49,655 nucleotides of DNA, from assembly GCA_904420215.1 (NCBI GenBank), contig CAJFUR010000156.1, positions 1 to 49,655 of the forward strand. The letters are read 5' to 3'. The position numbers and the translations under genes were made by a program. This DNA comes from an uncultured Eggerthellaceae bacterium (lineage in GTDB: Bacteria; Actinomycetota; Coriobacteriia; Coriobacteriales; Eggerthellaceae). The notes under the pieces were generated by a model. The model saw only the letters and a list, made by a program, of their open reading frames with translations. It had not been told where the DNA came from and made no database searches. Shown piece after piece: positions 10,607 to 48,575 of the stretch. The first letter of the stretch is position 1; every line of letters begins with the position of its first letter.

Positions 10607-12214
10607 CTAGGCGTTCTTCAGGAACGCCTGATAGCCTTTGTATGCCTCGTAGATGTCGGCCTTGCTGGTGACCTCCCAAGGCGAGTGCATGGACAGCACC
10701 GCCACGCCGGAATCGATGACGTCCATGCCGTACTTGGCGGGAATGTAGGCGATGGTCCCGCCGCCGCCAGCATCCACGCGGCCCAGTTCGGCGGTCTGGT
10801 ACGCCACGCCGGCGTCGTCCATGACGCGGCGGATGCGCGCCATGTATTCGGCACTTGCGTCGTTGCTGCCGCTTTTGCCCCGCGAGCCGGTGTACTTGTT
10901 GAACACCAGGCCGCGCCCCAAGTAGGCGGAGTTCTTCGCCTCGAAGACGCCGGCGTAGGCCGGGTCGAAACCCGCCGACACGTCGGAGGACAGCATGCAC
11001 GAGGCCGCCAGCGCGCGGCGCAGCGGCAACGCGCCGCCCTCGCCCGCCAGCTCCATGATTTCGGCAATGGTGTTCTCGAAGAACTGCGAGGCCATACCCG
11101 TGGCGCCCACGCTGCCTATTTCCTCCTTGTCCACCAGCACGCACACCGCCGCCTTGCGGGGGCGCTCCACCTCCAGCTGCGCCACGAGCGAGGTGTAGGC
11201 GCACACGCGGTCGTCCTGCCCGTAGCCGATGACCATGCTGCGGTCGAAGCCCAAATCGCGCGCCGGGCCGGCCGGCACCGCCTCCAGTTCGGCGGAAAGG
11301 AAGTCTTCCTCGGCAATGCCGTACTTGCTTGCCAGCAGCTTGAGGGCGAACGCCTTCACCGGCTCCTTTTCGGCCAGCTCCTCGAAGGCGGGCTTGCCGG
11401 CGGCGGGGTCTTTCGGGTCTGCGGGGGCAGCAGCCGCCGCGGACTCCGCGACTGCGGCGTCCACGGCAGTCTCCGCGTCTCCTGCAGCTTCTGTCGCCCC
11501 TGCGTCCACGATGCCTGCGGCGCCCTGCACGCCGGCATCGCCAACGCCCGCGCCAGAACCCACCGCCGCGCCGGCTTCGACGCCGCTGCCGTCCTCGCCC
11601 CCAACGCGCAGGGGCCGGTTGCCCACCAGCAGGTCCAAATCCTCGCCTTCCACCACCTTGCCGGCCTTTTTGTCCATCTGCTGGTTCGCCAAATGAATGA
11701 GCAGGTCGCTCACGCAAAACACCGGGTCGCCGTCCTCGTCGCCCACGTTCACGTCCACCACGGTGCCGTCGGTTTTCGCCACCACGCCATGCAGCGCAAG
11801 CGGCAGCGTGACCCACTGGTAGTTCTTGATGCCGCCGTAGTAATGCGTGTCCATGAGCGCGAACCCGTTGCTTTCGTACAGCGGGTTCTGCTTGAGGTCG
11901 AGGCGCGGGCTGTCGATGTGCGCGCCGAGGATGTTCATGCCGGCGGCGAACGGCTCGCTGCCCACCTGCACCAGAATGAGCGCCTTGCCATGCGCGGCCG
12001 CCCACACCTTGTCGCCCGACACCAGTGCGCGGCCCTCGCGTATAGCCTCGTCAAGTGGGCGATAGCCGTGGGCCTCGGCCATTTCGATGGCGGTTGCGGC
12101 GCAGGCGCGCTCGGTCTTGTTCCGCGAAATGAATTCCTTGTATTCCGCCGCCAGCGCTTCAAGCGCCTCTTCGTCGGCTTCGTCGTAGTTCTTCCATGCC
12201 ACGTCGCGTTCCAT
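10607..12214 (-). CDS. M18-family aminopeptidase with an Ala/Gly-rich internal insertion
   Basis: NILGAHIDSPRLDLKQNPLYES, DKEEIGSVGATGM, SSDVSAGFDPAYAGVFE motifs; start MERDVAWKNYDEADEEALE at 12214. Confidence 0.92.
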   Translation of the reverse strand: MERDVAWKNYDEADEEALEALAAEYKEFISRNKTERACAATAIEMAEAHGYRPLDEAIREGRALVSGDKVWAAAHGKALILVQVGSEPFAAGMNILGAHIDSPRLDLKQNPLYESNGFALMDTHYYGGIKNYQWVTLPLALHGVVAKTDGTVVDVNVGDEDGDPVFCVSDLLIHLANQQMDKKAGKVVEGEDLDLLVGNRPLRVGGEDGSGVEAGAAVGSGAGVGDAGVQGAAGIVDAGATEAAGDAETAVDAAVAESAAAAAPADPKDPAAGKPAFEELAEKEPVKAFALKLLASKYGIAEEDFLSAELEAVPAGPARDLGFDRSMVIGYGQDDRVCAYTSLVAQLEVERPRKAAVCVLVDKEEIGSVGATGMASQFFENTIAEIMELAGEGGALPLRRALAASCMLSSDVSAGFDPAYAGVFEAKNSAYLGRGLVFNKYTGSRGKSGSNDASAEYMARIRRVMDDAGVAYQTAELGRVDAGGGGTIAYIPAKYGMDVIDSGVAVLSMHSPWEVTSKADIYEAYKGYQAFLKNA

Positions 12215-12326
12215 ATGCCCACCTTTCCGACGACACCCTGCCGCTTTCCGGCAGCGGCGCGCCACGCCGTCCGTTTTCCGGAGTGCCCGGGCGCCCGCTC
12301 CCAGGCAACGCACTCCCGGGAGCGCG

Positions 12327-12387
12327 TTGCCGCTGGCGCACCGCGCTCCCGCCTGCCGCCTTGCCGCTGGCGCACCGCGCTCCCGCC
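12327..12387. repeat. Tandem repeat, 27-bp perfect copy at 34-bp period
   Basis: TTGCCGCTGGCGCACCGCGCTCCCGCC at 12327 and 12361. Confidence 0.9.
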
Positions 12388-12561
12388 GCCGCCTGCTGCC
12401 TTTTGCGCCATTATCCCCGACCGCAGTCCCTGCGGCCAGAGCGCGCGCCGATTCTCCACCGCGTTGCCAAGACGCCGGCCGAACTGTGAATGTTTGCTGA
12501 AGGGCGCGTATCGGCATGCCCCGCTCCCTTGCAAATGCTGTCCAAAAAGCCTAAGATTATC

Positions 12562-12584
12562 TTATTGAGATTCAGTCTCATTAA
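12562..12584. promoter_or_regulatory. Fur-like inverted repeat upstream of rubrerythrin
   Basis: TTATTGAGATTCAGTCTCATTAA near-perfect palindrome 47 bp before the start codon. Confidence 0.5.
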
Positions 12585-12630
12585 GGAACCACCAGAGGAG
12601 CAAGACGAGATCAAGAAGGAGCCTGCAGAC

Positions 12631-13245
12631 ATGACCATGAAAGTCCGTCCTGAAATCCCTACCGCCGAGAATTCCACGAACTTCAGCGTTGCCACGGGCA
12701 GCACCACGGTCGTTGGCACCACGCTTGACAACCTGAAGGCCGCCATTGCGGGCGAGACCGGCGCCTCCGCCAAGTACGCCGCCTTTGCGAAGGCTGCCAA
12801 GGAGCAGGGCTACGACCAGATCGCGCGCCTGTTCGAGGCCACTTCTGCCGCCGAGCAGATCCACATTGGCCTTGAGTACGCGCTCGTGGCCGAGGTCGAA
12901 CCCGATTACGAGAAGCCCACGGCCGACGCCCCGTCCGCCGAAGCGTCCGACCTGAACCTCATCTCCGGCGCCTGCGGCGAAATCTACGAGACGTCCGACA
13001 TGTACCCCGCCTTCATCAAGAAGGCCCAGGAAGAGGGCAACGCCAAGGCCGTGCAGGTGTTCACGCGCGCCAAGCTGGCCGAGTCCGTGCATGCCGAGCG
13101 CTACATGGACGCGTACAACAACATCGACGCCCCCGACGACGACAAGTTCTACCTGTGCCCCATCTGCGGCTACATCCACAAGGGCGAGAACTTCGAGAAG
13201 TGCCCCATCTGCTTCTGCCCGAAGGCCACCTTCAAGGCGTTCTAA
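12631..13245 (+). CDS. rbr: Rubrerythrin
   Basis: Diiron helices (GETGASAKYAAFAKAAKEQG, AEQIHIG, ESVHAERY) and rubredoxin-like CPICGYIHKGENFEKCPICFCPKATFKAF. Confidence 0.95.
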   Translation: MTMKVRPEIPTAENSTNFSVATGSTTVVGTTLDNLKAAIAGETGASAKYAAFAKAAKEQGYDQIARLFEATSAAEQIHIGLEYALVAEVEPDYEKPTADAPSAEASDLNLISGACGEIYETSDMYPAFIKKAQEEGNAKAVQVFTRAKLAESVHAERYMDAYNNIDAPDDDKFYLCPICGYIHKGENFEKCPICFCPKATFKAF

Positions 13246-13263
13246 GACACAAACCGCACAACC

Positions 13264-13295
13264 CGCGCGCCCGAGCGAACAGGCTCGGGCGCGCG
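13264..13295. terminator. Strong hairpin downstream of rubrerythrin
   Basis: CGCGCGCCCGAGC-GAACAG-GCTCGGGCGCGCG, perfect 13-bp stem. Confidence 0.6.
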
Positions 13296-13320
13296 AACCT
13301 TGGTCCCGCCAAGGCCGCAA

Positions 13321-13357
13321 CGGCGCCCGCGCAAAAACGTGCGGGCGCCGTCTTTCG
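13321..13357 (+). terminator. Second terminator-like hairpin
   Basis: CGGCGCCCGC-N10-GCGGGCGCCG followed by TCTTTCG. Confidence 0.6.
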
Positions 13358-13582
13358 TGGGGTCGCCGTCTTGCATGGTTTCATGGTGCAAATGCCCCTT
13401 GCCCGCTCTCCCCGCTTCCCCAAGAACGAAACCCCTCCGAAACTCCGCCCTTCGCCTTGCCTGGGGCATGCTTCGGCCTCCTTGCGGCGTCGAAGGCGAA
13501 AATGTTAGTCTTTGTTGCTTGCAGCAACGGCGCATGCGATCTTCAATGGAGCCGCAAAGCAAATTCGAAGGAGGGTTTTCGC

Positions 13583-14203: not shown

Positions 14204-14260
14204 CGCAACCGCGCTGGAAAGGGCGCCGGCAGCGGCTTTCCAGCGCCTGCAACCCGGCAG

Positions 14261-14791: not shown

Positions 14792-14894
14792 CCGCTTTCT
14801 CGCCGCCCCGCAGCCTCTCGCCGCCGCTCAACCGTTCCGCCCATGGTACACAAAGCGCCCGTCAACGGCAACGGCAAGAAAGGGTGGCGGGAAT

Positions 14895-14970
14895 GCGGCC
14901 CGGCAACAGCGCAGGAGGCGGGAAAAGGCGAAGCGGCCCGGCAACAGCGCGGAAGGCGGGACAAAGCGAG
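14895..14970. repeat. Imperfect 38-bp tandem duplication, GC-rich
   Basis: GCGGCCCGGCAACAGCGC(A)GGAGGCGGGA repeated at 14895 and 14933. Confidence 0.75.
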
Positions 14971-15230: not shown

Positions 15231-15269
15231 GACTTTCAAAACTGAGAAATTTTTTAAGTTTTGAAAGTC
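15231..15269. promoter_or_regulatory. Perfect 13-bp inverted repeat with AT-rich spacer
   Basis: GACTTTCAAAACT-N13-AGTTTTGAAAGTC. Confidence 0.7.
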
Positions 15270-15276
15270 ATGGGAA

Positions 15277-15303: not shown

Positions 15304-15319
15304 TTCATGCATCAAAACC

Positions 15320-17185
15320 CTAGATGCCCTGCGCCGCGTTCTTGCCGGCCAGACGCCCATACGACAGAGCGCCTGCGTGGTTCACGCCCATGGCCGTGTT
15401 GGGATAGACGTTCCAGAAGCGACTGCCCATGATGGTGCCGGCAACGTAGAAGCCGGGGATGGCGTTGTTGTTCTGGTCGATCACGCGCGTCTGCTCGTCG
15501 CAGCACACGCTGCCGTAGAACGTCTGGTATCCCAGCGGGCCCATCTGCGCCGCATAGAACGGAGGCGTCCTGACCTCGGTCAGGCGGTCGGCGCGCTTGC
15601 CGAAGTCGGTGTCTTCGCCCTGGTCGTGCATCGCGTTGTAGCGCTCCACCGTCGCCTTGAAGGTTTCGGGGTCCACGCCCATGTTCTCGGCAAGCTCCTC
15701 AAGGGTGTCCGCCGGCTCGCACAGCCCCGGCCACGACTCCACCTCTTGGCGCGTGATCATGCCAATGGGGTCGAGGAACAGGCCCATGGGTATTTCGTCG
15801 TAGTCATCGACGACCTTCCAGTACGTGCGGTGCCCAACGGGCATGTGCGCAATCTGGTCGGGATAGTTGCTGTCGAACACCTGCCAGATGACCTCGCCGG
15901 CAACGCGGTTGACCTTCTCGCCCAGAATCTCGCCCGTCACGTCCTCGTTCATGAAGCGCTCGCCCTTGCCGTCCACGAAAAGCATGGGGTCGCAGCCGAG
16001 CGCCCCGCCGTAGTGGTCGTTGCAGCAGGCATGCGTGGTGTCGGTCTTCGCGCCAATCCAGTAGGCCATGCTCAGGCCCTCGCCCAGGTTCGTGCGCTCC
16101 CCCTTGGCGTCGATGTCGGGCCAGCCCAAGTCGCCGCCCTGCAAAAGGCGGTGGCAGTCTTGGAAGTAGTTCACCATGGCCAGGTTGCCGGCGAAGTCGC
16201 CCGTGCACAGGATGACGCCCTTGGAAGCGTTGACCTGGTGGTAGACCCCGTCCTCGTCCTCGTAGACCAAACCCGTCACGCGGCCGCTCTCCTCGTCGCG
16301 CAGGATGCGCCGCGCCCAGCACGCGTACTTGACCGTCGCGTTCTCCTCCACGAAGGCGGCGACGTTGTTGCCCAGAATCTCGTGCGTGGGCTCCACGGTC
16401 ACCACGCCGGGAGACATGGGGTAGCGCTCGGACGCCAGATCGAAATTCGGGTTGAGCGGGTGGTTGAACACGCAGATGTAGGGGGCGTTCTCCAGAACCG
16501 CCTTCTCGCGCTCCTCGCTCACGTCGTCGAACACGCGCCCGACGATGCCGCCCAAGCCCGCCGTACACACGTTGACGAGCGCCTTCGCGTCCAAGCTCGT
16601 CTCTCCCACCAACTCGTTCGGATCGACCACCGTGTAGGAGTCGGTCAGGGAAAGGTACCAGTCGAAGTCCTCGCCACAGTGGTTCAGCAGGTAACTCCAC
16701 ATGCGCCGGTCGATGCGTTCGTGGAAGTTGTTCATTTCGGAATCCACCAGAAGGTCTATCTCCTCCTGGGTCAACTCGGCGCCGTGGTCTTTCGCCGCCT
16801 GGCAGTTGATGGCATGGAACTGGTGCGAGTGGGTGTGGTGCGTCGTGCCCTTTTCGATGACGAACACCTCCGCGCCTTCCTCCAAGGCGGCACGCGCGGC
16901 GCTCATGCCGGCAAGCCCCATGCCCACCACGGCCACTTCCGTGTCGGTCACGTCCGCGATGTCTTCTTCGGGTATGGGACCCGGATCGATGAGGAACTGC
17001 GGGGTAAACATGCCGTTCTCGTCGAAGGTTCCCCATTCCGACGAGGCCGCCTGCGCCGCATCGCCGGCGTCGGTTGCACCCGAGGAATTCGGGCTGCAGC
17101 CGCCCATGCCGCTTGCCGCAAGCGCCGCCGCGCCGGTGAGCGCAGCACCCTTGAGGAATTGGCGCCTGTTCATGTCCAAAGCCAT
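15320..17185 (-). CDS. Tat-exported FAD-dependent reductase, fumarate reductase/flavocytochrome c flavoprotein family
   Basis: MALDMNRRQFLKGAALTGAAALAASGMGGCSP (Tat plus lipobox), VAVVGMGLAGMSAARAALEEGAEVFVIEK, GVILCTGDFAGN, NTAMGVNHAGALSYGRLAGKNAA; RBS GGGAGGT. Confidence 0.93.
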   Translation of the reverse strand: MALDMNRRQFLKGAALTGAAALAASGMGGCSPNSSGATDAGDAAQAASSEWGTFDENGMFTPQFLIDPGPIPEEDIADVTDTEVAVVGMGLAGMSAARAALEEGAEVFVIEKGTTHHTHSHQFHAINCQAAKDHGAELTQEEIDLLVDSEMNNFHERIDRRMWSYLLNHCGEDFDWYLSLTDSYTVVDPNELVGETSLDAKALVNVCTAGLGGIVGRVFDDVSEEREKAVLENAPYICVFNHPLNPNFDLASERYPMSPGVVTVEPTHEILGNNVAAFVEENATVKYACWARRILRDEESGRVTGLVYEDEDGVYHQVNASKGVILCTGDFAGNLAMVNYFQDCHRLLQGGDLGWPDIDAKGERTNLGEGLSMAYWIGAKTDTTHACCNDHYGGALGCDPMLFVDGKGERFMNEDVTGEILGEKVNRVAGEVIWQVFDSNYPDQIAHMPVGHRTYWKVVDDYDEIPMGLFLDPIGMITRQEVESWPGLCEPADTLEELAENMGVDPETFKATVERYNAMHDQGEDTDFGKRADRLTEVRTPPFYAAQMGPLGYQTFYGSVCCDEQTRVIDQNNNAIPGFYVAGTIMGSRFWNVYPNTAMGVNHAGALSYGRLAGKNAAQGI

Positions 17186-17509: not shown

Positions 17510-17620
17510 CATCCGCACCGCACGCAGCGCCCATGCCGCCCGTCGGCGCGCCGCGCGCGCCACCCACCGCACCATCCGCACCGCACGCAGCGCCCATGCC
17601 GCCCACCGCACCATCCGCGC
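17510..17620. repeat. 63-bp-period tandem repeat (32-bp perfect core)
   Basis: CATCCGCACCGCACGCAGCGCCCATGCCGCCC at 17510 and 17573, partial third copy. Confidence 0.85.
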
Positions 17621-17684: not shown

Positions 17685-19337
17685 CTACAGGGAGTCGATG
17701 TAGTTCAGGAGGTCTTCCTGCGAGGAAACGCCGATCTTGCGGTAGATATTCCGCGCGTGCGTGCGCACGGTCGCCTCGGAAATGTAGGCGCTTTCCGCAA
17801 TGAATCCGTAGCTGTGCCCGCGGCTCAGCAGGGTGAGCATTTCGGCTTCGCGCGGCGTGAGGGCGTGGGTTTCCGCAACCGCCTTGCAGCGCGACGCAAT
17901 GTACGTCTCAACGATGCTTCTTTCCTGCTTGCGCGCCATCGGCTCTTCCGACCCGTCCACTGCCAAGAACACCACCGTGGCGCACAAATACGCGACGAAC
18001 ATGATGATTGCCACCACGTTCGCCGCCGTGCCCACTGCATGGTGAATGGCGAAGCCCACAAGCGACATGCCCGCCACGAAGGCGAGGCATCCGCCAAACG
18101 CCACGCCCGTGGGAAGCCCGGAAGCGCGCGCAGATGCCAGCAGAAGCGACCACGTGCACACGATGAGCGCCGCCGAGCCGCCGTTTTGCAAGTTCGCCAC
18201 CAGCGCGTTCCACCCTGCAGAACCTATGTCGTCGAACAGCGGCGTGATCACGAAAAGCGCCGCTACCACGGGCATGACCACCCAGAAGAAGCGCTTCGCT
18301 TCGGCGTAGCCCTGAAGACGCCGGGCCGCGCACGCCATTCCGCCTGCCACGATAAGGGGGCCGACAAACCCCACGTTTCCCCAGATCGAACTACTGCCTG
18401 ACACATGCGTGGGAGCTTCTTGCGCCCACAGCAGCCCTAGCAGGAAGGCACACACCGCCAAGCCGCACAAGGCCGCCCACGAGGGCCGCAGAAGCGCCAC
18501 CAGGCGATGCCGCTTCCCCAAGGGCTCCAACCCCGCGTCGGCGCCCTGCCGCCCCTGCTCCCCGGCAAACGCGTGGGCGCCGGAGCCGGCGGACGCACAT
18601 GCGCCGGGGGCGGACGCACGCGTGCCAAGGCCGGCAGGCGCGCGCTTTTCGGCCAACCCCGTCCCCTCGGCTGCCGCATGCCCCCCGGCAGGCTCCCTCC
18701 TGCCGGCCGGCACCTGCCCGCCTGCGGAATCCTGCAGGGCGAACACCACCGAAACCGCAGACAGCGCCAGCAGCACGACGACGCACAGCGCCATGGGAAG
18801 TCCCGAAGGCGCCCACTGCCCAACGGCCGCCAACGCCACTCCCCAAAGAAGCGAAAGGGAGCCTTTCCTGAAAGCCTCCACGAAAGAAAGCGCCGCATAG
18901 GCGGAAGTCCAAACCAGCGCCAGAGAAAGGCAGCCCACGCCGAAAGCGACCCCCGCCGCGCCATGCGCCCCGTCTGAAAGCGCCGCGGAAGACCCCTGCA
19001 TCTGCCCCATGAGGCCGCCGACGGCACACGCAAGCGCCACGATGGCCGCCACAACGCCCACCAGCGAATGCACCGCAAGGCCCCGGCGGCGGGCAAGCAC
19101 GCCAACCGCAACCGCCCCCGCGCCGGCAGCGACCATGCCCAAGGAGCAGCCTGCGAAAAACACGTTCGCCCCGCTCTCCCATCGGGCCACGCTCCCCACA
19201 TGCCCAATGGCCACCAAATACGCCGCGAACAGCGCGCCGAAGCCGAGGTAGCACGCCCCCTTCCCATTCGGGCGGCGGCCATCCTCCCGTTCAGGCCGGG
19301 GCCTTTCGTCTGGCGAAGCCTCCCGTATGGCACGCAT
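17685..19337 (-). CDS. Membrane-bound LuxR-family regulator (N-terminal multi-TM, C-terminal HTH)
   Basis: C-terminal LTPREAEMLTLLSRGHSYGFIAESAYISEATVRTHARNIYRKIGVSSQEDLLNYIDSL; upstream hydrophobic helices. Confidence 0.9.
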   Translation of the reverse strand: MRAIREASPDERPRPEREDGRRPNGKGACYLGFGALFAAYLVAIGHVGSVARWESGANVFFAGCSLGMVAAGAGAVAVGVLARRRGLAVHSLVGVVAAIVALACAVGGLMGQMQGSSAALSDGAHGAAGVAFGVGCLSLALVWTSAYAALSFVEAFRKGSLSLLWGVALAAVGQWAPSGLPMALCVVVLLALSAVSVVFALQDSAGGQVPAGRREPAGGHAAAEGTGLAEKRAPAGLGTRASAPGACASAGSGAHAFAGEQGRQGADAGLEPLGKRHRLVALLRPSWAALCGLAVCAFLLGLLWAQEAPTHVSGSSSIWGNVGFVGPLIVAGGMACAARRLQGYAEAKRFFWVVMPVVAALFVITPLFDDIGSAGWNALVANLQNGGSAALIVCTWSLLLASARASGLPTGVAFGGCLAFVAGMSLVGFAIHHAVGTAANVVAIIMFVAYLCATVVFLAVDGSEEPMARKQERSIVETYIASRCKAVAETHALTPREAEMLTLLSRGHSYGFIAESAYISEATVRTHARNIYRKIGVSSQEDLLNYIDSL

Positions 19338-19403
19338 GCGCGCTTCCCCTTCCCCGTCGTGCGCCTTGCCAGCCACTATACCAGATTGGGAAAGGGCCTG
19401 CGC

Positions 19404-19573
19404 TATAATGGAGGGCGCGGGCAAGCCGGAACGATCTGGACTCGGCGGAAAGCCTGCGGAAAGTCCCGCAGAAGGTCCCACGGGCATGGCCGACTGCTCG
19501 GCCAATCACCCAGCAGGACGCCCAACCGGGCAGTCGGCCAACCGCCCGCACCACGTTATAAGGAGCACGAGAC
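19404..19573 (+). promoter_or_regulatory. TATAAT promoter element and potentially structured leader upstream of apbE
   Basis: TATAAT at 19404; hairpins CTGCGGaaagtcCCGCAG and TGGCCGACTGC(T)CGG...CCG(G)GCAGTCGGCCA (19487-19540). Confidence 0.35.
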
Positions 19574-20839
19574 ATGCCCGACGCCACGCGTCCCCAATCA
19601 CCCGAAGAAGCGTCCAACAGCATGCAGTCCCGGCCATCCGGGGCCGCCGGCGAAATGGGCGCCAGCGCCGCCGCTCCCGACGCCGCCGCCGTCGATGGCG
19701 GCGGCGCCACCGATGACACCGCCGCCGCTCCCGACGCCATACCGCTGGAAGACGCGTTCACGTTCAACGAACCTAATGAGGCGGGCATGTCAACGGCCCT
19801 GTTCTACGCCTTCAACACCGTCATCACCCTGCAGGCGTTCGGAAACGCCGCCCACGTGCGCGCCGCCATGGAGGAGGCGCGCGACCGCTGCCGGTTCTTC
19901 GAGCGGCTTTTCTCCCGCACGCTGCCCCATTCCGACATCGCCCGCCTGAACGCAGCCGCCGGGGCGGCGGTGGAAATCCACCCGGAAACGCTGCGGCTGC
20001 TGCAGGCCGCGCAGCGCTACTGCGCCCTCAGCCAGGGCGCCTTCGACATCACCATTGGCGCGGCGGCGCGGCTGTGGAACTTCCACACGGGCGCCATGCC
20101 CTCCGAACAGGAACTTGCGCAGGCGGTTCGCCACGTGAACTGGGAAGCGCTCCACGTGTGGGAGGAAGCGCCGACGGCAGGGGCTGATGCAGGCAGCGCG
20201 AGCGCGGGGGCGGGCGTAGGCGGTGCGATCGCGGGGGCGAAAACGCCGCAGTCGCAGGGGGCTGTCGCAAGCGCGGGTCGCCCGGAGACGCACCCGACGG
20301 CCCCGGACGCACCGGAAGCGCCGACACGCTGCTTCGCCCGCCTCGACGACCCGCACGCGGGAGTGGACGCAGGCGGCATTGCCAAGGGCTACATTGCCGA
20401 CGACCTCGCCAACCTGTTCGCGCAGCGCGGCCTTGAGGCCTTCGTCGTGAACCTGGGCGGCAACGTGGTGGCCCACGGCACGAAGCCGGACGGGACGGCA
20501 TGGAAGATAGGCCTGCAGGACCCCAAGCGCAAGGACGGCATTCTGGGCGCCATCCAGCTGACCGACGCCTCGGCCGTGACCAGCGGGGTGTACGAACGCG
20601 GCTTCGAGCGCGCCGGCAGGCTCTACCACCACATCCTGAACCCGCGCACGGGCATGCCCGCGGAAACCGACGCCGCGGGCGTCACGGTGGTGGCCGACGC
20701 GTCGCTGGACGCCGAGGGGTTCTCCACCACGCTTCTGGCCTTGGGCATTGCCCGCGGCGCGGAGTTCGCGAAGGCGCGCCCCGAAATACAGGCGGCGTAC
20801 TTCGTGGATCGTCAAGATCGCGTGGTGACGGTGCTGTAG
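19574..20839 (+). CDS. apbE: FAD:protein FMN transferase (ApbE) with Ala-rich insertion
   Basis: FNTVITLQAFG, FSRTLPHSDIARLNAAAG, GVDAGGIAKGYIADDLANLFAQRGLEAFVVNLGGNVVAHG, HHILNPRTGMP. Confidence 0.94.
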   Translation: MPDATRPQSPEEASNSMQSRPSGAAGEMGASAAAPDAAAVDGGGATDDTAAAPDAIPLEDAFTFNEPNEAGMSTALFYAFNTVITLQAFGNAAHVRAAMEEARDRCRFFERLFSRTLPHSDIARLNAAAGAAVEIHPETLRLLQAAQRYCALSQGAFDITIGAAARLWNFHTGAMPSEQELAQAVRHVNWEALHVWEEAPTAGADAGSASAGAGVGGAIAGAKTPQSQGAVASAGRPETHPTAPDAPEAPTRCFARLDDPHAGVDAGGIAKGYIADDLANLFAQRGLEAFVVNLGGNVVAHGTKPDGTAWKIGLQDPKRKDGILGAIQLTDASAVTSGVYERGFERAGRLYHHILNPRTGMPAETDAAGVTVVADASLDAEGFSTTLLALGIARGAEFAKARPEIQAAYFVDRQDRVVTVL

Positions 20840-25740: not shown

Positions 25741-27468
25741 TTACCTCGCCAGCCGGTAAGAAACCCCCGGGCCGCGCGCGCCTCCCAAGCGCTCGATGCT
25801 TCCGCTGTTCAATAGGCTGTTTATAGCGCGGTTGACCGTCGCCTTCGACTTGCCCACCGCCGCCGCTATGCGACTGGCGCCCACCGGCCCTTCTTCCTGC
25901 GCCATGAACTCGATGATGGCGTATTCCGTGCGGGAGCGAAAGGGCACGTGCCGCGCGCCCGCCCGAACGTCCCGGTCGCTTTGCAAGCAGCCTTGCCCGC
26001 TTGAACCGTCAGCCGGCCGGCCGGCCCGACCATCCCGCACGCCTCCACATTCCCCCGGACAACCGCTTTGACCGCCACTCCACTCGCCTTGATCGCCCTT
26101 GCCGGCACATGCACCGGCTCCCGTACCGCCAGAAGCGCCCCTGTCGCCAGAAGCTCCCGCGCCGCCACGGGCGAAGCGGTCGGGCACGAGTTCCTGCCGC
26201 CGTTTCATGGTGAGGACGAACGACGATATGACGTCTTGGGGAACGGGCGGACTCATGGAAGCTTGGGCAAGGCTCGACTGTATCTGGTAGTAGCCGGTGC
26301 CTTTGTTCTCCACCACGAACCCCTGCTCGGCGTAGTTCTGGGGATAGGCCGTGAATTCCAAGATGCGGGCGAGCGTGCGGTTGCGGCGCGAAGACTCGCC
26401 CAGTTTTCCCAGCTTGTCGATGGTCATGGTGCCGAACAGGCCTCCGGGGTTCATGATTTCCAAGCGGTCTTCGTACATGTTCACCTGCACCTGCGAGCCA
26501 AGCCCCTCGGGCGAGTAGTCCCGGTGCACGAGGGCATTCACCAAAGCTTCCCGCACTGCCACCTCGGGATACTCGGGCACTTCGTAGCGAAACGCCCCCT
26601 CCACGCGCGATGCGGTGCGCATGTTGCGGCGAATGCGCGCCATGGCTTCGCACACCATGTAGGGAATGGAGCCGTCGAAGTTCTTCGAATCCACGAAACG
26701 CTCCCGTCCGGGCGCCACATCGGCCTTGCTGAAGCCGGGAACCAACAGGAAGGTCACGTTGGCCGCAGGAAAGAACTGCTGGGGGAACACGCCAAGAGCC
26801 ATGATGCCCGCAACCGTGGGGAGCAGCCCTCCTGCCTCATCGCGAATCGCAACGCCCATGGCGCACAACAGGTCTTCGTCGCCGAGGCTCTTAATGGCAG
26901 GCGCCGATTCGCTGCGCACGCGCTTCAAGAAGCCTTCCACCATCAGCGGGTCAAGGTGGTGCAGGGCGGCCCCTTCGACAACCCTCCTGTCATGTTCCGG
27001 CTGATGCTGCCCTTCCACGATGCGGCTCACTTCGTACCGGTTCAGGCGGTGGTCGCCGTCCGCCATGCGCACGAAGGCGCCGTCGAGCATGGTTCTGCTC
27101 TTGACATAGCACGGCTTCAAATACGGATCCATTTCGGGAATGTAGGCCCACACCACCGGCGACCCTTCGAATTCCTCCAAGGTTATCTCGGCGCGCACCG
27201 GCGGCTCCACCCGATCGGCGCACGCCTGTGCCAGAGCGTCGGACACCCGTGCTGCATCGAAGCCGGGGGCGGGCGCGAACCCGTTTTTCTCCGACAGGCC
27301 ACACACGATGACGCCGCCCGAGCCGTTCGCGAATGCGGAAACGGTTTCGGCGATGCTCTTGGGAAGCCCGCCGGCCGCCTCCTTCACCTCCACCAAACGC
27401 GTGTCGGTGCCCGTTTTGCGCGCAATGCCCACGAACTCGCCAAGCTGGAACGTGTTGCGCGATGCCAT
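25741..27468 (-). CDS. AlbA_2/HATPase_c_4-type putative transcriptional regulator with C-terminal winged-helix-like segment
   Basis: ESTE...-like N-terminus TRLVEVKEAAGGLPKSIAETVSAFANGSGGVIVCGLSE; VREALVNALVHRDYSPEGLGSQVQVNMYEDRLEIMNPGGLFG; C-terminal GASRIAAAVGKSKATVNRAINSLLNSGSIERLGGARGPGVSYRLAR. Confidence 0.9.
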   Translation of the reverse strand: MASRNTFQLGEFVGIARKTGTDTRLVEVKEAAGGLPKSIAETVSAFANGSGGVIVCGLSEKNGFAPAPGFDAARVSDALAQACADRVEPPVRAEITLEEFEGSPVVWAYIPEMDPYLKPCYVKSRTMLDGAFVRMADGDHRLNRYEVSRIVEGQHQPEHDRRVVEGAALHHLDPLMVEGFLKRVRSESAPAIKSLGDEDLLCAMGVAIRDEAGGLLPTVAGIMALGVFPQQFFPAANVTFLLVPGFSKADVAPGRERFVDSKNFDGSIPYMVCEAMARIRRNMRTASRVEGAFRYEVPEYPEVAVREALVNALVHRDYSPEGLGSQVQVNMYEDRLEIMNPGGLFGTMTIDKLGKLGESSRRNRTLARILEFTAYPQNYAEQGFVVENKGTGYYQIQSSLAQASMSPPVPQDVISSFVLTMKRRQELVPDRFARGGAGASGDRGASGGTGAGACAGKGDQGEWSGGQSGCPGECGGVRDGRAGRPADGSSGQGCLQSDRDVRAGARHVPFRSRTEYAIIEFMAQEEGPVGASRIAAAVGKSKATVNRAINSLLNSGSIERLGGARGPGVSYRLAR

Positions 27469-27548
27469 AAAACCCACCTTCTCCCTAATGCTCTGTTCCG
27501 CCACGCACCGGCATCCGACCGTCCTTGAAGGGAGGCGGGCGTTTTGAC

Positions 27549-27665
27549 TGCATGTGCGCCTGCTTGCACACCTGCATGTGCGCCCGCACGCAGGCATGCA
27601 TACCTGCGTGTGTGCCTGCATGTGCGCCTGCTTGCGTGTGCGCCCGCATGCCCGCCTGCACGCGC
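27549..27665. repeat. 12-bp tandem repeat array in the AlbA_2 gene 5' UTR
   Basis: TGCATGTGCGCC / TGCTTGCACACC / TGCATGTGCGCC ... ; TGCATGTGCGCCTGCTTGC occurs twice exactly. Confidence 0.9.
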
Positions 27666-28210: not shown

Positions 28211-28395
28211 AAGCGTGGGTGCGGCGCACCCTGCCTTTCTCCATTCTGCCCGCAATTATAGCATCGTACCCCGCATTGCCGCCTTCCCCTTCGCCGTATC
28301 GAAAAGATGCGGCTTCGCAAGCGGGGCAGAGAGGTCGGCGCGCTCGTGGTCGGGCCTGCAGGTGCGCAAAGCCTAGACGGGAGCCTTGCGCCAAA

Positions 28396-28495
28396 GGAAG
28401 CCTGACCACGCGCTCCCGCAGGAGGCCTGACTGCACGCCCCCGCGAAAAGCCCGGCCGTGCGCCCCGACAGAAAGCCCGAACGCGCTCCGGCCGC
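28396..28495. repeat. Four 25-bp imperfect tandem units abutting the HipA-like stop codon
   Basis: ggaagcctgaccacgcgctcccgca / ggaggcctgactgcacgcccccgcg / aaaagcccggccgtgcgccccgaca / gaaagcccgaacgcgctccggccgc. Confidence 0.8.
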
Positions 28496-37488: not shown

Positions 37489-37580
37489 GCCGCCGCACGC
37501 CCGCAGCATGTTCGCGCGCTCGGCTGCCGCACGCCTGCAGCACGCTTGCGCGCTCGGCCGCCGCCCCGCTCACGCGCTCG
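37489..37580. repeat. 34-bp tandem repeat, about 2.7 units
   Basis: gccgccgcacgcccgcagcatgttcgcgcgctcg / gctgccgcacgcctgcagcacgcttgcgcgctcg / partial. Confidence 0.85.
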
Positions 37581-37602: not shown

Positions 37603-40572
37603 CTACTCGATGACGATGCGCTTCACCAGCACGTTCGCCAAAGTGGAACGGCACAGGTCGCAGCCGAGGCCGAAGGGGTGGCCCTCGCGGTTGAGCGTCA
37701 CCGTTCCCCGCTCCACGGAATACGGCGGATCGGTGACATCGACGGGGAAGTAGCGCGACGTGGCGCCCACGTCGCCCGGCACGTCCATGCCCGGCAGCGT
37801 TTGGAACGCCGCATGCACGCGCTTCGAAATGCCCGTGTCGTACATGCCGCCCATCCACACCCGCGCGCCGCGCGCCTGCGCCGCGCGCACGAATTCCAGC
37901 GCACCCAACACGCCGCCGAACTTGCCCACTTTGACGGCGAAGCAACGCAACTCGGGATGTTCGAGCGCCCGGTAGGCGTCTTCGGGGCGGACAAACGACT
38001 CGTCAAGGCAGATGGGCGTGGCAAGAGAGCGCTGCAGGCGCGCCAACTGCTCGAACGCGCCTCCCCGGCCCCGCGCCGAAAGGCCGCCCACGTCCAACGG
38101 CTCCTCCATCCACGCCGCGCCGCACGCGTCCAAGGCGCGCAACTCGTCCCAGTCGCGCTCGCCGAAGCTCTGGTTGGCGTCCAGCGTGATCACCAACTGC
38201 GGAAACGCCTGCCGCACCGCACGCACGCAGGCCGCCGAACCCGGCGCCACCTTCAGCTTCACGCGGCGGTACCCCGCCTCCACGCAGCGCCTTGCCGCTT
38301 CCACCGTTTCCTGCGGCGTGCCCAGCCCCACCACGGCGCCGGCAGCCACCTTCGCCGACGTTCCCACACGAGGAAGGACGGCACCGGCACCGGACGCGCC
38401 CGCAGCGCCGAAAGCCGGCTCGCCGCCAGCACCGCCCGCACCGGCGGCCGCTTGCACGGGGCCGGCCGCGCCTGCGCCGCCGGTCGCGGGCGCGGCATCG
38501 CCCCCAAACGCCGCGCCAGTTCCGCCAGCGCGCCCGCCGTCCACGACGCCGGCCATGCCCATGCGCGCCGCTTCCTCGCGCACGAGCTTCCACAGCGGCT
38601 TGCCCACTATCTTGCCGTACAGGTCCCACAGCGCCGGCTCAAGCGCCCCGCGCGCCAGCGGGAACGCCGCAGCCTCCAGAACGCCGTTCAGCGCCTCGGC
38701 GGCCTCGCGCGGATGCAGGTACGCCCGCGCAAGCACTCGCGGGATCAGGAAACGCTGCAGCACCGTCGCGTCGTGCTCCAGCGTTTCGGGAAGGTACCAG
38801 TCGGTTGCAAACGCCACGCATTCGCCCAGGCCCGTGCGGCCCGCATGGTCCACCACTTCCACGATGAGGGAATCGCGGGCGTTGAGCGTGGCCTTCGCCG
38901 TCTTGAATGGCCTGACGAAGGGGAGGCGGACGTGGTAGAGGTTCACGCGCTTGACCTCGATACGCTGCTCGTAGAGGCGCTCCGCTGCGGCGCGGTCGAT
39001 TTTCCCAATGCCGGTGCGCGGCAGCTCGTCCACCGCGAAAATGTGCTGCGGCAGGTAGATTTTCGAGAGATTGGGGCGCAGGGCGGCATACACGGTTTGG
39101 ACGAGGTCTTGCGTGGGAGCGCCGGCGCCACCCGCTTGCGAAACGCGCTCGCGTTCCACGAACGCGACGGGACGCCGCCCCCACGTAGCGTCGGGCGCGC
39201 CGAACACGTATGCGTCGGCCACGCCGGGCACGCGCACGAGCTTGTCCACGATCTCCGCCGGGTACACGTTCTCGCCCCCCGACACGAACATGTCGGCCGT
39301 GCGCTCCTTCACGTAGAGGCGCCCGCCTTCGAAGGCGGCCACGTCGCCTGTGAGGAAGTAGCCATCCACCGTGAACGCCGCCCGGGCGTTCAGGTAGCCC
39401 GAGAAAACCCCCGGCCCGCTGACCGCAAGGCGCCCGTACCCTTCGGCGTTCGCATCCACAATGCGCGCCCGGTAGCCGGGAAGCAGGCGCAGGCCTCCCC
39501 GGAAACCGTCATCCACCTGCCCGTGCGCAATTTGGCTGGACGTTTCGGTCATGCCGTAGCTGGCATACACACGCGCCTTGGCGGAAAGGGCGCGCGCCAG
39601 CGTCCTGCGGTTCAGCGCGCCGCCGCCCAGAAGGATGCACCGGTACCCCTGCAGCGCCTCCGCGTCGCCAACCGCCAGCAGGTCCTGCAGCATCTTGTCC
39701 ACCACCGACACGTGCGTCGCATGGCGGCTTCGCGCATCGTTCAGGACGCGATTCGCGTCGAAGCGCGCGTACAGCAGAAACGGGTTGCGGTTCATAACGC
39801 TGCGCACCACCACCTGCAGCCCGCCAATGTGGTACAGCGGCAGCGCCGCCTGCCACAGCCCTTCGGCGGGCCGGCTGAGCGCCGCGTTCGACGCCTGCGC
39901 CGCACTTGCAAGCTGCCGCCACGTCAAAGGCACCGCCTTGGACTTGCCCGTGGTGCCGGACGTGAACATGACCAGCGCCAACGCCTCGTCGTCGAACAGG
40001 TGCGCCTGCCGCTCCGCGAAATGGATGGCTTCCTCTTCCGCATCCTGCCGCGCCCCCATGATCACGCGCCCCCGGCGGCCTCCCGCCGAAGGGGCGGACG
40101 GCGCCTGCGTGCGCTGCGCCCTGAACGAAGGGAGTTGCCAGGGCCTTCCCGCACGCGCCTGGCCCTCGCCGCCGGCGCGCCTGCCCATGAGGTCGTCCTT
40201 CACTTGGGAAACTAGCTTTTCGGCACGCCGCTTGTCAATGCGGCAGGACAGGCGCACGCCGCGCAGGCGCTCCAGCTCCATCAGGCGCGCCTGCTTCTCT
40301 GCCGGGGTGAGACGGTAATTGACGGGGACGATGGCAAACGACGCATAGGCGGCAGCCAGCAGCAGGAACACGAACGCCGGGCAATTAGGCAGGTCGAGCG
40401 CCACGCAGTCTCCCCGCTGCACGCCCGCGTCCTGCAGCCGGCGCGCCAAGCCCGCCGCTATCAGGCGGGTCTGGCGGTAGGTGTAGCGCTCCTCTTGGCC
40501 CGATTCATCGACAAAAGTGAAGCATGCCCGTTCGGGATACATCCTCACCATGCTTTCGAATATGCCAATCAT
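37603..40572 (-). CDS. Fused o-succinylbenzoate-CoA ligase (MenE) and o-succinylbenzoate synthase (MenC)
   Basis: N-term ligase motifs VMFTSGTTGKSKAVPLTW, YGMTETSSQ, TADMFVSGGENVYPAEI; C-term enolase-superfamily motifs RRVKLKV, LDANQSF, WMEEPL, CLDESF, FAVKVGKFGG. Confidence 0.92.
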   Translation of the reverse strand: MIGIFESMVRMYPERACFTFVDESGQEERYTYRQTRLIAAGLARRLQDAGVQRGDCVALDLPNCPAFVFLLLAAAYASFAIVPVNYRLTPAEKQARLMELERLRGVRLSCRIDKRRAEKLVSQVKDDLMGRRAGGEGQARAGRPWQLPSFRAQRTQAPSAPSAGGRRGRVIMGARQDAEEEAIHFAERQAHLFDDEALALVMFTSGTTGKSKAVPLTWRQLASAAQASNAALSRPAEGLWQAALPLYHIGGLQVVVRSVMNRNPFLLYARFDANRVLNDARSRHATHVSVVDKMLQDLLAVGDAEALQGYRCILLGGGALNRRTLARALSAKARVYASYGMTETSSQIAHGQVDDGFRGGLRLLPGYRARIVDANAEGYGRLAVSGPGVFSGYLNARAAFTVDGYFLTGDVAAFEGGRLYVKERTADMFVSGGENVYPAEIVDKLVRVPGVADAYVFGAPDATWGRRPVAFVERERVSQAGGAGAPTQDLVQTVYAALRPNLSKIYLPQHIFAVDELPRTGIGKIDRAAAERLYEQRIEVKRVNLYHVRLPFVRPFKTAKATLNARDSLIVEVVDHAGRTGLGECVAFATDWYLPETLEHDATVLQRFLIPRVLARAYLHPREAAEALNGVLEAAAFPLARGALEPALWDLYGKIVGKPLWKLVREEAARMGMAGVVDGGRAGGTGAAFGGDAAPATGGAGAAGPVQAAAGAGGAGGEPAFGAAGASGAGAVLPRVGTSAKVAAGAVVGLGTPQETVEAARRCVEAGYRRVKLKVAPGSAACVRAVRQAFPQLVITLDANQSFGERDWDELRALDACGAAWMEEPLDVGGLSARGRGGAFEQLARLQRSLATPICLDESFVRPEDAYRALEHPELRCFAVKVGKFGGVLGALEFVRAAQARGARVWMGGMYDTGISKRVHAAFQTLPGMDVPGDVGATSRYFPVDVTDPPYSVERGTVTLNREGHPFGLGCDLCRSTLANVLVKRIVIE

Positions 40573-43148: not shown

Positions 43149-43153
43149 AGGAT

Positions 43154-44656: not shown

Positions 44657-44679
44657 CCCAGCGACACACCGGACGCAGA

Positions 44680-44717
44680 CGGCAGCGCTTGCGAGGGGGG
44701 GGGGCGCAGGCGGCGAG
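44680..44717. repeat. Direct repeat copy 2 with G10 homopolymer (44695-44704)
   Basis: CGGCAGCGCTTGCGAGGGGGGGGGGCGCAGGCGGCGAG. Confidence 0.85.
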
Positions 44718-44807
44718 TCCAAAACGCTGGGCAGAGTGCGTACCCAAAGCCCCAAGCGCACGAACGCGCGGAACCCGAGCGGAAAACAACAACGCTTTGC
44801 GGCGGTG

Positions 44808-45848
44808 TCAGGCGTGCGAGAATTCCTCGAGGACGCGCACGAAGGCCGCGGGGCGTTCCAGATGCACGTTGTGGCCCGCTTGGGAAACGACGCGCGCGGT
44901 CAGGGGGCGGAACGCGCCTCGGGAGGCGGAAGCGGCTTGGGCGGGGGGAGCGCTCCGGGTGTCCACAGCACCTTGGACGCCCGGAGTGGCTCGGGTTGCC
45001 GGGGCGGCCTGGGTGCCCGCGACAACCCGAACCGGCGGAGCGGCTTGGGTGCCTGCGGCGGGCTGGGCGGCAAGCTGTTCCGCAAGCGCGCGGTACTTCG
45101 CGTCGCGCTCGCCGGCAACATAGCACACGGGGATGCCGCGCGCCTGCAACTCCTGCAGCGTCGCAAGGACTTCGGCGCGGTCGGGCATGCGGTGGGCGCC
45201 GGTTCCCTCGAACGTGCGCGCCAAGGCTTCGGCGTCGTTTGCCAAACGCTGCTCGCGCACACAGGCGCGAACGCCGCTGGGCAAGTCCCGCTGCGTGGCG
45301 AACAGGGGCAGACGCTCCCATGCGTCCATGAACGCAGCCACGCCGTCCTCGCGCAGCCGGCGGGCGTTCTCCCCGTTGCGGCGCGCCGCTTCCTCGCGCT
45401 CCGCAGGCGACGCGGGACCCAAGCCGGCGCTTTCCAGCACGAGCGCACCAAAGGGGAGGCCGCTCGGAAGCGCGCGGGCTGCTGCGGCAAGCGCCATGCG
45501 CCCGCCCATGGAGTAGCCCACCACGCACGGCGCGCACCCGGCGTTTTCGCCCTGCACGTGCTGCAGGAACGCGAGCAGCGCCCCGCAGGCGGCGTCCATG
45601 CCGTAGGCCGCTGGGTCGCAGGGACGCTCGCTTTTGCCATGCCCCACGAAGTCGAATGCATACACCAGACGCCGCGACGCCAGACGGGCGGCAATGTCGT
45701 CCCACGAGCGGGCACTCTGCGCGAAACCGTGCAGCAAGACGAACGGGCGCGAAGCGCAGGCGTCGGCGGCGCGGCCAGCCGCAGCAGCGCCCCAGCACAC
45801 GAACCGGTAACGCACGCCCACATGCGAAAACGTGTCCGACGCCTTCAT
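44808..45848 (-). CDS. menH: Alpha/beta hydrolase, MenH-like, with Ala/Pro-rich insertion
   Basis: FVLLHGFAQSARSWDDIAARLASRRLVYAFDFVGHGKSERP, VVGYSMGGRMAL, SQAGHNVHLERPAAFV; located in the men cluster. Confidence 0.82.
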   Translation of the reverse strand: MKASDTFSHVGVRYRFVCWGAAAAGRAADACASRPFVLLHGFAQSARSWDDIAARLASRRLVYAFDFVGHGKSERPCDPAAYGMDAACGALLAFLQHVQGENAGCAPCVVGYSMGGRMALAAAARALPSGLPFGALVLESAGLGPASPAEREEAARRNGENARRLREDGVAAFMDAWERLPLFATQRDLPSGVRACVREQRLANDAEALARTFEGTGAHRMPDRAEVLATLQELQARGIPVCYVAGERDAKYRALAEQLAAQPAAGTQAAPPVRVVAGTQAAPATRATPGVQGAVDTRSAPPAQAASASRGAFRPLTARVVSQAGHNVHLERPAAFVRVLEEFSHA

Positions 45849-46295
45849 CTTCGCCCCTTTTCCGCACCGCTCAATGCTGCTCGTTCTTTCCCATACGGAC
45901 ACCTCGCAGCAAGAACACACGGGAGTCGCATTTGGACAACCCGCATGAAGTCAAGCAGTATTCAAGCACGTTTTCGCAAAGATGCCAACCGATGCCCAAC
46001 GGCGACCAAACGCACATCCAACAAAAAAGCCACCGAAAGTCGCCAACTCAACGCCCCACCCCCAGGACACGACCGCAAGCACGGCGTAAGGTTTTTGGGG
46101 TTTGGACGAAGTCCTCCGATTCGGAGGGCAGCCCGCAGAGCCGGCCGAGGAATCGGGGCAAGAAAAGAGGAGGTTCCCCCCTATCCTTTGATTTGCCGAG
46201 AATCGAAGGGAGAAAAGGAGAACCCCGCATGACAGACGATACCAACCCTCATGCCCGTGGCTTCCGCGCCCGCCTTGCCGCGCGCCGCAGGTTCG

Positions 46296-48575
46296 TCACA
46301 GTCCCTGATACGGGGCGTAGCGGCTGGTCACGCCAGCGAGGGGCAGCTTCACCTCGATGAGGCTGATGCCCGGGGTCCCCAGCGCGCCCGCATACGCCTC
46401 CCGGAAGGCGGCGACCGTTTCCACCGCGCGGTACGGCACGCCGAACGCGCTTGCGGCGTCGGCGAACCGAACGTCCTGCGGCACCAGGAACAGGCGCTCG
46501 AAATAGGCGTCGTCGGACTTCTGCGGCAACATGTCGAAGATGCCTCCGCCGTTGTTGTTCAGAAGCACGATGACGACGCTGCGCGCGGCGTCCCCGCCGT
46601 GATGCACCAGCAGCTCGCGTTGCAAGGCGAGCGCGTTCAGGTCGTGCAGCATCGTGAAATCGCCGGTGAGGAACGTGGTTTGCACGAAGTGCTGCGCCGC
46701 GCCCAAGGCGGTGGACACCGTGCCGTCGATGCCGTTCTGCCCGCGGTTGCACAGCACCGCCAGACGCTTGTCCTGTTTCACGTAGAACGTGTCAAGCGCC
46801 CGCACCGACATGGAATTGGCCGAGAACAGGCACGACCCCTCGGGCGCCATGTCCAGAAGCGCCTGCACGTAGCCGCCCTCTACGTCGGGTTGCGCCTGCA
46901 AGACCGCGCAGATGCGCGTGCGCGCCCGCGCGTTGAGGGCCTGCCACTGCCGCGCGAACTGGCGCTGCGCTTCGGTGGGGAGGGCGGAGGAGCCCGGCGT
47001 GGCGGCGCTTCCAACAGGCCCGCCTTCGGCACCGCCTTCAAAGCCGCCGCCTTGCCCCGGCACATTCCGCATGCCAGCCTGTTCCATCGAGCGCACGAAC
47101 TCGAGCGGCGTGCAGGCTGCGAACAGGTCGGTCGCCAAGTTGAAGTCGCGCGTTTGGGCCACGTCCACCACCACGTTCAGCGGGCGGGCGGCGGCCAGGC
47201 GCTGCGTGCAGTGTTTGGAGATGGGGTAGCGCCCGAAGCGGACGACGACGTCCGGCAGCGGGCAAGCGGCATCGCCGAACACGTTGTCGTAGTTGTCGAT
47301 GACCGCCTCGTCGGCAAAACCGCGCAGGCCCGACAGGGGATCGGCCAGAAGCGGCAGGCTGCGGCGGCGCGCCCACGCCAGAACCTCGCGCGCCTCGGCT
47401 TCGGTCTCGCACGTTCCCTCGCCCGCCAGCACGAGCGTGCGGCCGCCCTGCAGCAATTCGCCCACCTGTTGCAGGGCCTTGGCGTCCAAGCGCCCTTCGA
47501 CGCCAAGGCGGCAGAAGGAAAACCCGTGCGAGCGGCCCGCCTCGAACAGGCCCTCGACCGCGAAATCGGGCGTGAGAGGCTCGTCAAGCTGGAAGTTCAC
47601 CTGCACCGGACCCGCCATGTGGCGGCACCCGCGCGCGGCCACGACGCCCTCGCGCGCGGCAGGGGCGGCCGGGGCGGCGTCGCAGGTCGCGGACGCGTGG
47701 GTCAAGGGCATGCAAGCAGCCGCTGCCGCGCCAGCGAGATCCGGGGCGTCGGCCGCTGCAGCCGCCATCGAGCCAGCGACGCCCGCCGCACCGGCGGCAC
47801 GCACCGCATCCGCGGCGTCTTCCGCAGCGGCCGGCGGCACGTCCGCCCCCGGCCCCAATGCGGAAAGGCACGCCTCGCGCGCGGCCTGGCGGGCAAACGC
47901 CACGTCGCGCGGCGCGGCACCCGGCATGGTCATCTGCCGGAAGCTGCGCACGTGATCGCCATATGCCTTCACCTGGTCAACCGTCTGCGGCGCCCCGAAG
48001 CCCTGCAGGCGCAGGGGCCGGTCGCCCGAAAGCACCACCAGCGGCACGCGCGAGGTTTCGGCTTCCATCACTGCGGGGTAGTAGTTCGCCAGCGCCGTGC
48101 CCGACGTGCATACCAGCGCCACAGGGCGCCCGCTTGCCTTGGCCAGACCCAATGCAAAGAACGACGCGCCGCGCTCGTCCACGTCCACATACACGCGCAT
48201 GCGCTCGGGAAAGCGCCGGCTCATTTCGAATGCCGTCATGGTAAGCGCCGTGGAGCGCGACCCCGGGCTGATCACCGTTTCGCGCACGCCCCAACGCGCC
48301 AGTTCGTCGAAGAACGCCGAAACGAACAGCGCCGTGGCCTGTTGGCTGGTTGGTGGTTGGCTGGTTGGTGGTTGGCTGGTTGGCTGCTGGCCACTGGCCG
48401 GTTGGTCGCTGGCTGCCTGCCGGTTGCCGGCTGCTGCCTGCTGGCCGTCGGCCTGCTGGTCGGCCACTTGCCGGCCGTCGCCTTCCGCCCGCTGGGCAGC
48501 CGCTGCCTGCTGGCCGCCTGTCGCCGGCTCGGCGTTTGCCGACCCTAGGACGCCCGTCGTTCGCTGGTTGTTCAT
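46296..48575 (-). CDS. menD: 2-succinyl-5-enolpyruvyl-6-hydroxy-3-cyclohexene-1-carboxylate synthase with two low-complexity inserts
   Basis: FVSAFFDELARWGVRETVISPGSRSTALTMTAFEM, DERGASFFALGLAKASGRPVALVCTSGTALANYYPAVMEAE, LCNRGQNGIDGTVSTALGAA, VVIVLLNNNGGGIFDMLPQ. Confidence 0.96.
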   Translation of the reverse strand: MNNQRTTGVLGSANAEPATGGQQAAAAQRAEGDGRQVADQQADGQQAAAGNRQAASDQPASGQQPTSQPPTSQPPTSQQATALFVSAFFDELARWGVRETVISPGSRSTALTMTAFEMSRRFPERMRVYVDVDERGASFFALGLAKASGRPVALVCTSGTALANYYPAVMEAETSRVPLVVLSGDRPLRLQGFGAPQTVDQVKAYGDHVRSFRQMTMPGAAPRDVAFARQAAREACLSALGPGADVPPAAAEDAADAVRAAGAAGVAGSMAAAAADAPDLAGAAAAACMPLTHASATCDAAPAAPAAREGVVAARGCRHMAGPVQVNFQLDEPLTPDFAVEGLFEAGRSHGFSFCRLGVEGRLDAKALQQVGELLQGGRTLVLAGEGTCETEAEAREVLAWARRRSLPLLADPLSGLRGFADEAVIDNYDNVFGDAACPLPDVVVRFGRYPISKHCTQRLAAARPLNVVVDVAQTRDFNLATDLFAACTPLEFVRSMEQAGMRNVPGQGGGFEGGAEGGPVGSAATPGSSALPTEAQRQFARQWQALNARARTRICAVLQAQPDVEGGYVQALLDMAPEGSCLFSANSMSVRALDTFYVKQDKRLAVLCNRGQNGIDGTVSTALGAAQHFVQTTFLTGDFTMLHDLNALALQRELLVHHGGDAARSVVIVLLNNNGGGIFDMLPQKSDDAYFERLFLVPQDVRFADAASAFGVPYRAVETVAAFREAYAGALGTPGISLIEVKLPLAGVTSRYAPYQGL
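48344..48410. repeat. 15-bp GT-rich tandem repeat inside the menD 5' region
   Basis: ggctggttggtggttggctggttggtggttggctggttgg; encodes the PTSQPPTSQPPTSQQ stretch on the minus strand. Confidence 0.9.

Follow-up and report, generated by a model that had tools for sequence, protein, structure and literature searches.

Low-complexity inserts in seven proteins

The DNA analyzed here, referred to as the window, is the whole stretch of 49,655 nucleotides (nt) of contig CAJFUR010000156.1 (assembly GCA_904420215.1) from an uncultured Eggerthellaceae bacterium, whose metagenome-assembled genome comprises 2.69 Mb in 185 contigs and is 84.7% complete. Seven proteins encoded in the window carry inserts rich in Ala, Gly, and Pro (A/G/P); the inserts are in-frame and stop-free in all seven, and the core domains of the proteins are recognized by Pfam. 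A first-pass annotation, made from the sequence alone, had proposed these inserts together with a Gln/Pro/Ala-rich N-terminus of MenD, and all seven are present within ~35 bp of the positions that it gave; the MenD N-terminus is likewise present. The features, with lengths in amino acids (aa) and the open reading frame (ORF) of each host, are as follows.

11372-11593, minus strand: Ala/Gly-rich insert of ~74 aa in an M18 aminopeptidase (ORF 10607-12517, probable start near 12220)
~18513-18725, minus strand: Ala/Gly-rich insert of ~71 aa in the central loop of a LuxR-type membrane regulator (ORF 17685-19505)
~20168-20329, plus strand: insert in ApbE, ~47 aa above the family median (ORF 19574-20839)
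~25954-26184, minus strand: Gly-rich insert of ~70 aa in an AlbA_2/Schlafen-type regulator (ORF 25741-27621)
~38350-38562, minus strand: Ala/Gly-rich insert in a MenE-MenC fusion, ~51 aa above the median (ORF 37603-40572)
44895-45059, minus strand: insert of ~51 aa net in MenH (ORF 44808-45920)
47631-47864, minus strand: Ala-rich insert 1 of MenD, ~75 aa (ORF 46296-48575)
~46968-47078, minus strand: shorter insert 2 of MenD, ~23 aa above the median (same ORF)
48366-48575, minus strand: disordered Q/P/A-rich N-terminal extension of MenD, supported by Tandem Repeats Finder (TRF), direct repeats, and the predicted local distance difference test (pLDDT)

Orthologues from up to 30 relatives (Eggerthellaceae, ~30 genomes, one genome per species) were aligned to delimit the inserts, and solved structures were used for the same purpose; below, G-numbers denote genomes and L-numbers denote the sequence stretches compared. 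Each insert occupies a single loop, which most genomes have in a short form, and relatives have the same insert sites but carry unalignable, length-variable sequence there, so that sites are shared and sequences are unrelated. The excess over the family median amounts to 23-59 aa per site in the five proteins tabulated. No window insert corresponds to a conserved domain, as judged from Pfam profiles and from cross-genus alignment of MenD and other orthologues. Neither of the two findings that the first-pass annotation had named as refuting its idea was thus obtained.

The inserts had also been expected at loops or domain boundaries, and both the AlphaFold models of MenH and MenD, which combine confident cores with disordered inserts, and the Pfam domain limits agree with this. 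The MenH insert precedes the strand leading to the catalytic His and is modelled with a pLDDT of 40-47, and residues 1-71, 265-307, and 505-529 of the MenD model are mostly below 50. MenD insert 1 falls where the N-terminal TPP domain is joined to the central one, a loop of 0-60 aa in relatives, and the solved structure 2X7J has 3 residues opposite MenD residues 235-316. The AlbA_2 insert separates an ATPase-like from a winged-helix domain and makes the protein ~70 aa longer at this point than its four closest relatives, whereas the MenE-MenC insert lies in the MenC part and separates its N- and C-terminal domains. The aligned region of the LuxR-type regulator measures 141 aa, compared with 81-102 aa in most paralogues; one paralogue (L386, G063), at 143 aa, carries an insert of its own in this position. 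MenE and MenC form a single fused protein of 989 aa (37603-40572), and the same fusion occurs in most family relatives searched.

The M18 insert falls in the hypervariable loop where the lengths of bacterial M18 aminopeptidases differ, and the solved structure 2GLJ has no residues at all opposite M18 residues 209-284. Between the motifs GNRP and KEPVK, the loop measures 17-118 residues in relatives as cut by a regular expression; that of the window is longer than nearly all of them and is Ala/Gly-rich. The loop is length-variable in Firmicutes as well, and its filling is K/E-rich in GC-poor Butyrivibrio. In G036, which belongs to the same genus as the window genome, the M18 loop is identical to that of a genome deposited as 'uncultured Gordonibacter sp.' (L159), which places the window in a Gordonibacter-like member of the family.

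Gain of an insert is clear in MenH. Of 30 genomes, 28 have no insert there, among them G036, the only same-genus genome in the comparison set, whose orthologue is 51 aa shorter at this site. The exceptions are this genome and G080, whose insert lies at the same place with an unrelated sequence, and both inserts show degenerate repeats spaced by 36 nt. The two are independent gains.

The fragmented and incomplete state of the assembly might suggest that the inserts are artefacts of assembly or gene prediction. However, the frames are open, the cores are intact on both sides, and similar loop growth is seen in genomes that are near-complete or consist of a single contig, G070 and G062 among them, which makes an artefact extremely improbable.

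A genome-wide excess

The first-pass annotation had argued for a genome-wide process rather than seven separate accidents. This was examined with 20 further stretches of the genome (257 kb), chosen regardless of content, and with samples similar in kind from three relatives and two distant actinobacteria. Genes were called with a home-made frame-aware caller (GC content at third codon positions 0.85), and A/G/P stretches were defined as internal segments with ≥60% or ≥70% A/G/P over 30 aa, thresholds that we set ourselves. In the 215 genes called in the window and the 257 kb, 47 stretches reach ≥60%, compared with 14.3 after within-protein shuffling, and 18 reach ≥70%, compared with 0.8. Outside the window, 15 of 183 genes, or about one gene in twelve, contain a stretch of ≥70%. 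The corresponding figures are 4/309, 2/194, and 10/275 in the relatives and 2/145 and 5/162 in the distant actinobacteria. For the comparison with the first two relatives, Fisher p is 0.0003 and 0.0008, respectively; it is 0.057 for G062 and 0.063 for G141.

Correlated loop lengths were also considered as proof of a genome-wide trait and were rejected, as loop lengths are uncorrelated between proteins across genomes once this genome is omitted (mean rho 0.04). Because of this, and because the seven window sites were selected for being long in this genome, the genome-wide claim has to be based on the sample taken outside the window, which was unselected. Together with the shuffle excess, this sample supports one genome-wide tendency, not seven accidents, as had been proposed.

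Repeats, tandem arrays, and loop turnover

Internal direct repeats exceed those of codon-shuffled DNA in 13-14 of the 47 stretches and in 6 of 80 core segments; in G062, the figures are 11 of 24 and 4 of 80. In the window, the ApbE insert contains a degenerate 27-nt tandem repeat (20180-20239), the AlbA_2 insert an 18-nt tandem repeat (26117-26167), and the end of the MenD N-terminal extension overlaps a perfect repeat of 15 nt x 2.9 (48341-48383). TRF detects 76 arrays in this genome and 7 in dinucleotide-shuffled DNA, about a tenfold excess. Periods that preserve the frame account for 156 of 183 coding arrays (85%) but 46 of 90 intergenic ones (51%; Fisher p 4e-9), and 19 of 49 coding arrays overlap A/G/P-rich stretches, which make up 4.4% of coding DNA.

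Tandem duplications of 25-38 nt with 68-89% matches are also found between called genes of the window, at 14895-14969, 17513-17612, 28395-28444, and 37489-37564, and they resemble those within genes. At L249:14317-14523, a low-complexity insert lies between two nearly identical 29-nt copies of host coding sequence (WSADALLREA / WPADALLREA), which form a direct repeat at 129-nt spacing, as if from one 129-nt duplication.

The pace of loop change can be seen in the close species pair G062/G022. In M18, the synonymous divergence (dS) of the core is 0.076 and the loop differs by 30 codons; in MenD, core dS is 0.11 and the loop is largely rewritten. The ratio of nonsynonymous to synonymous divergence (dN/dS) is 0.18 in the core and 0.59 in the loop of M18, and 0.40 and 0.74, respectively, in MenD, the loop values resting on 48-62 codons only. 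Selection appears to be relaxed in these loops, over the few sites available.

Composition tells a similar story. The inserts consist of 32% A, 19% G, and 8% P, with hydrophobic and aromatic residues scarce, and their GC content at the three codon positions is 0.84/0.73/0.79, compared with 0.66/0.48/0.85 in genes, which fits relaxed constraint. One could propose that GC-driven point mutation alone has filled pre-existing variable loops, with no duplication involved, given that insert composition follows genome GC and that the M18 loop varies in length even in Firmicutes. However, point mutation adds no length, the MenH gains are clear, and internal repeats are present, so that this explanation seems very unlikely.

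Origin of the inserts

Overall, we consider it probable that the window inserts are low-complexity loops expanded by in-frame tandem duplication in otherwise normal, functional enzymes. According to this model, short DNA segments of ~15-75 nt would be duplicated in tandem, usually to about two copies, throughout the GC-rich genome, and the in-frame copies that fall in disordered loops or domain linkers would persist, purifying selection there being weak. Later gains and losses, along with point mutations, would then scramble the copies, so that loop length and sequence would turn over faster than enzyme cores diverge, and the A/G/P make-up would be what a loop tolerates as all three codon positions drift toward the ~80% GC of the genome. 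New sequence would stem mainly from duplication by slippage or misalignment, even in inserts where repeats are no longer visible, and the high number of inserts in this lineage may reflect a raised duplication rate or weaker selection.

Several observations weigh against this model. A significant internal repeat is missing from about two thirds of the stretches, and the M18, MenD-1, and MenE-C window inserts are among these. Tandem arrays are frequent in the other sampled genomes as well, and array frequency alone therefore cannot explain the higher insert number of this genome. The DNA of the M18 and MenH inserts forms more stable folds than its shuffled versions (z -4.2 and -3.1, respectively), a hairpin excess found in these two window inserts only, which tandem duplication does not predict. 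Furthermore, first codon positions of the inserts contain G at 0.66 and C at 0.18, an excess implying that some selection at the amino-acid level remains, and dN/dS in the loops, on its few sites, stays below 1.

These last two features, together with the bias toward small and polar residues, are also what one would expect if the inserts were disordered linkers of adaptive value, maintained for example because they serve solubility, phase behaviour, or regulation. Such a function is unlikely, as a single site spans 0 to 80+ aa among relatives with intact enzymes and the sequences are barely alignable even in close species.

R1, a dispersed palindromic element in relatives

Two mechanisms had been offered for the inserts, namely repeat growth by slippage and a propagating GC-rich element. 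The first has positive support from the internal repeats and arrays, whereas the second finds no support in the window inserts themselves. An all-against-all blastn comparison of the 47 stretches gave a top score of 43.7 bits, within the 38-47 bits of shuffles and no better than codon-shuffled DNA, and a search with the MenD insert in its own genome and in seven relatives turned up no further close copy, the best match being 41 nt at 85%. The idea that the window inserts share an element was therefore rejected.

An element of this kind does exist elsewhere in the family. The M18 inserts of G070 and L205 have a 16-nt core in common with unrelated places in other genomes, and this core belongs to a dispersed palindromic element, here called R1, of ~110 nt with a longer form of ~150 nt. 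R1 is built of a conserved CAGTCGCTC-AACAGTCCTGCTCGCACG ... CGTGCGGAACTCGCTTGGTG around a variable hairpin, and the sequence of its outer closing stem varies between copies while pairing is kept. RNAalifold found compensatory changes in 21 of 37 pairs among ten hand-picked copies; the 32 of 37 pairs obtained from a larger alignment are biased toward structure, because the sequences in it had been fitted to the model and some of them are weak matches on the reverse strand of places already included. At least one match is present in 69 of 119 family genomes and 28 of 48 genera, with up to at least 32 in one genome, 32 being the number of candidates that were scored in each, and 17 in the genome studied here. 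R1 is absent from Rfam, and an Rfam search of the window and the R1 loci gave no match except a tRNA. It was not found in the phages searched and occurs in one plasmid record, from Collinsella aerofaciens; a relative is also present upstream of groES in Collinsella. R1 is apparently an undescribed DNA repeat. The copies compared are the following.

R1 copies: L070:2125-2234, L205:2128-2210, L400-L429, L321:1952-2270, L333:13147-13256 and 15695-15804, L246:7622-7771
HisH genes with R1 (three species, two genera): L400:1011-1835, L410:1218-2177, L421:1264-2112

Nine of the 30 best one-per-genome loci, which are top-scoring matches and not a random sample, lie in frame within conserved genes. The hosts are HisH (three times), Mfd, PurL (antisense), RNase R, a GltA/GltD-type reductase, TsaB, and a protein that we take to be DUF1385-like, NCBIfam having given it no name. 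With R1 inside, HisH, PurL, RNase R, GltA, TsaB, and the M18 protein of G070 still exceed their NCBIfam cut-offs; Mfd falls below its own, its sequence ending at the end of the locus. Most sense copies translate as ..QSL.QSCSHG....SGSCGTRLV... The same HisH loop holds R1 in the sense orientation in G062 and in antisense in G058 and G085, which probably reflects repeated insertion. Emptier versions of R1 sites were found in PurL and the DUF1385-like protein of G062, in GltD of G103, and in M18 of G103 and G031. We are highly confident that R1 exists and lies in frame in housekeeping genes of relatives; an element of the proposed kind is thus present in the family.

The M18 copies of G070 and L205, which were the discovery cases and are not among the nine, occupy the same loop as the window M18 insert, and in HisH of G085 an R1 copy adjoins a Gly/Ala-rich repeat, so that one loop can be used by both processes. 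It could be argued from this that mobile palindromic elements such as R1, placed in frame and since decayed, gave rise to the window inserts; they would have entered tolerant loops, lost their hairpin, grown by tandem duplication, and become Ala/Gly-rich. The 17 matches in this genome and the self-complementarity of the M18 and MenH insert DNA beyond that of shuffles are consistent with such a route. On the other hand, the window has no R1 match even with filters off (best E 0.16), the insert sequences are alike in composition only, the 47 stretches as a class fold no better than core segments, and the genes called in the sample of this genome contain no CGTRLV peptide. A decayed-element origin therefore seems unlikely.

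Two further repeats were encountered in the relatives. In a 385-kb sample of G062 (L329-L348), a different dispersed repeat, CATCCTGAGCGAGCGAAGC / CCTTCGACTCCGCGCC, occurs at least 6-8 times, and in a 400-kb sample of G103 (L259-L278) the sequence TGTTTCACGTGAAACA, which is of the parS type, occurs 14 times.

Comparison with known systems and perspectives

Expansion of low-complexity regions by replication slippage is described both in general (PMC3523016) and for Plasmodium repeats (PMC2705789). The inserts resemble such expansions in being length-variable, fast-evolving loop insertions of conserved proteins, found proteome-wide and with internal repeats. They differ from the Plasmodium case in that their units are mostly duplications of 15-75 nt, not single-codon runs, and in that the host is a GC-rich bacterium. 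Low-complexity regions of AT-rich Plasmodium use residues other than Ala, Gly, and Pro.

R1 is comparable to the Rickettsia palindromic elements, which are protein-coding palindromic repeats (reviewed in PMC2229807 and PMC10969869). Both measure ~110-150 nt, form a long imperfect hairpin, are dispersed, lie in intergenic regions as well as in frame in conserved genes, and mostly use one preferred reading frame. However, R1 belongs to another phylum, and its outermost stem is copy-specific yet paired; the likeness is one of description. The window inserts themselves are not this element. For Eggerthellaceae, a search of the open-access literature gave nothing relevant on either palindromic repeats or low-complexity inserts.

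The inserts would represent a bacterial, GC-rich counterpart of low-complexity loop growth in Plasmodium, for which close species pairs allow timing and testing. They also carry a warning for annotation, since domain models break at such loops, the window MenD being matched by its family model only as three separate pieces. Finally, with R1, the translation of a dispersed hairpin repeat within housekeeping genes would extend to a further lineage, one distant from Rickettsia, and the element could make the spread and tolerance of such elements testable in cultured relatives.

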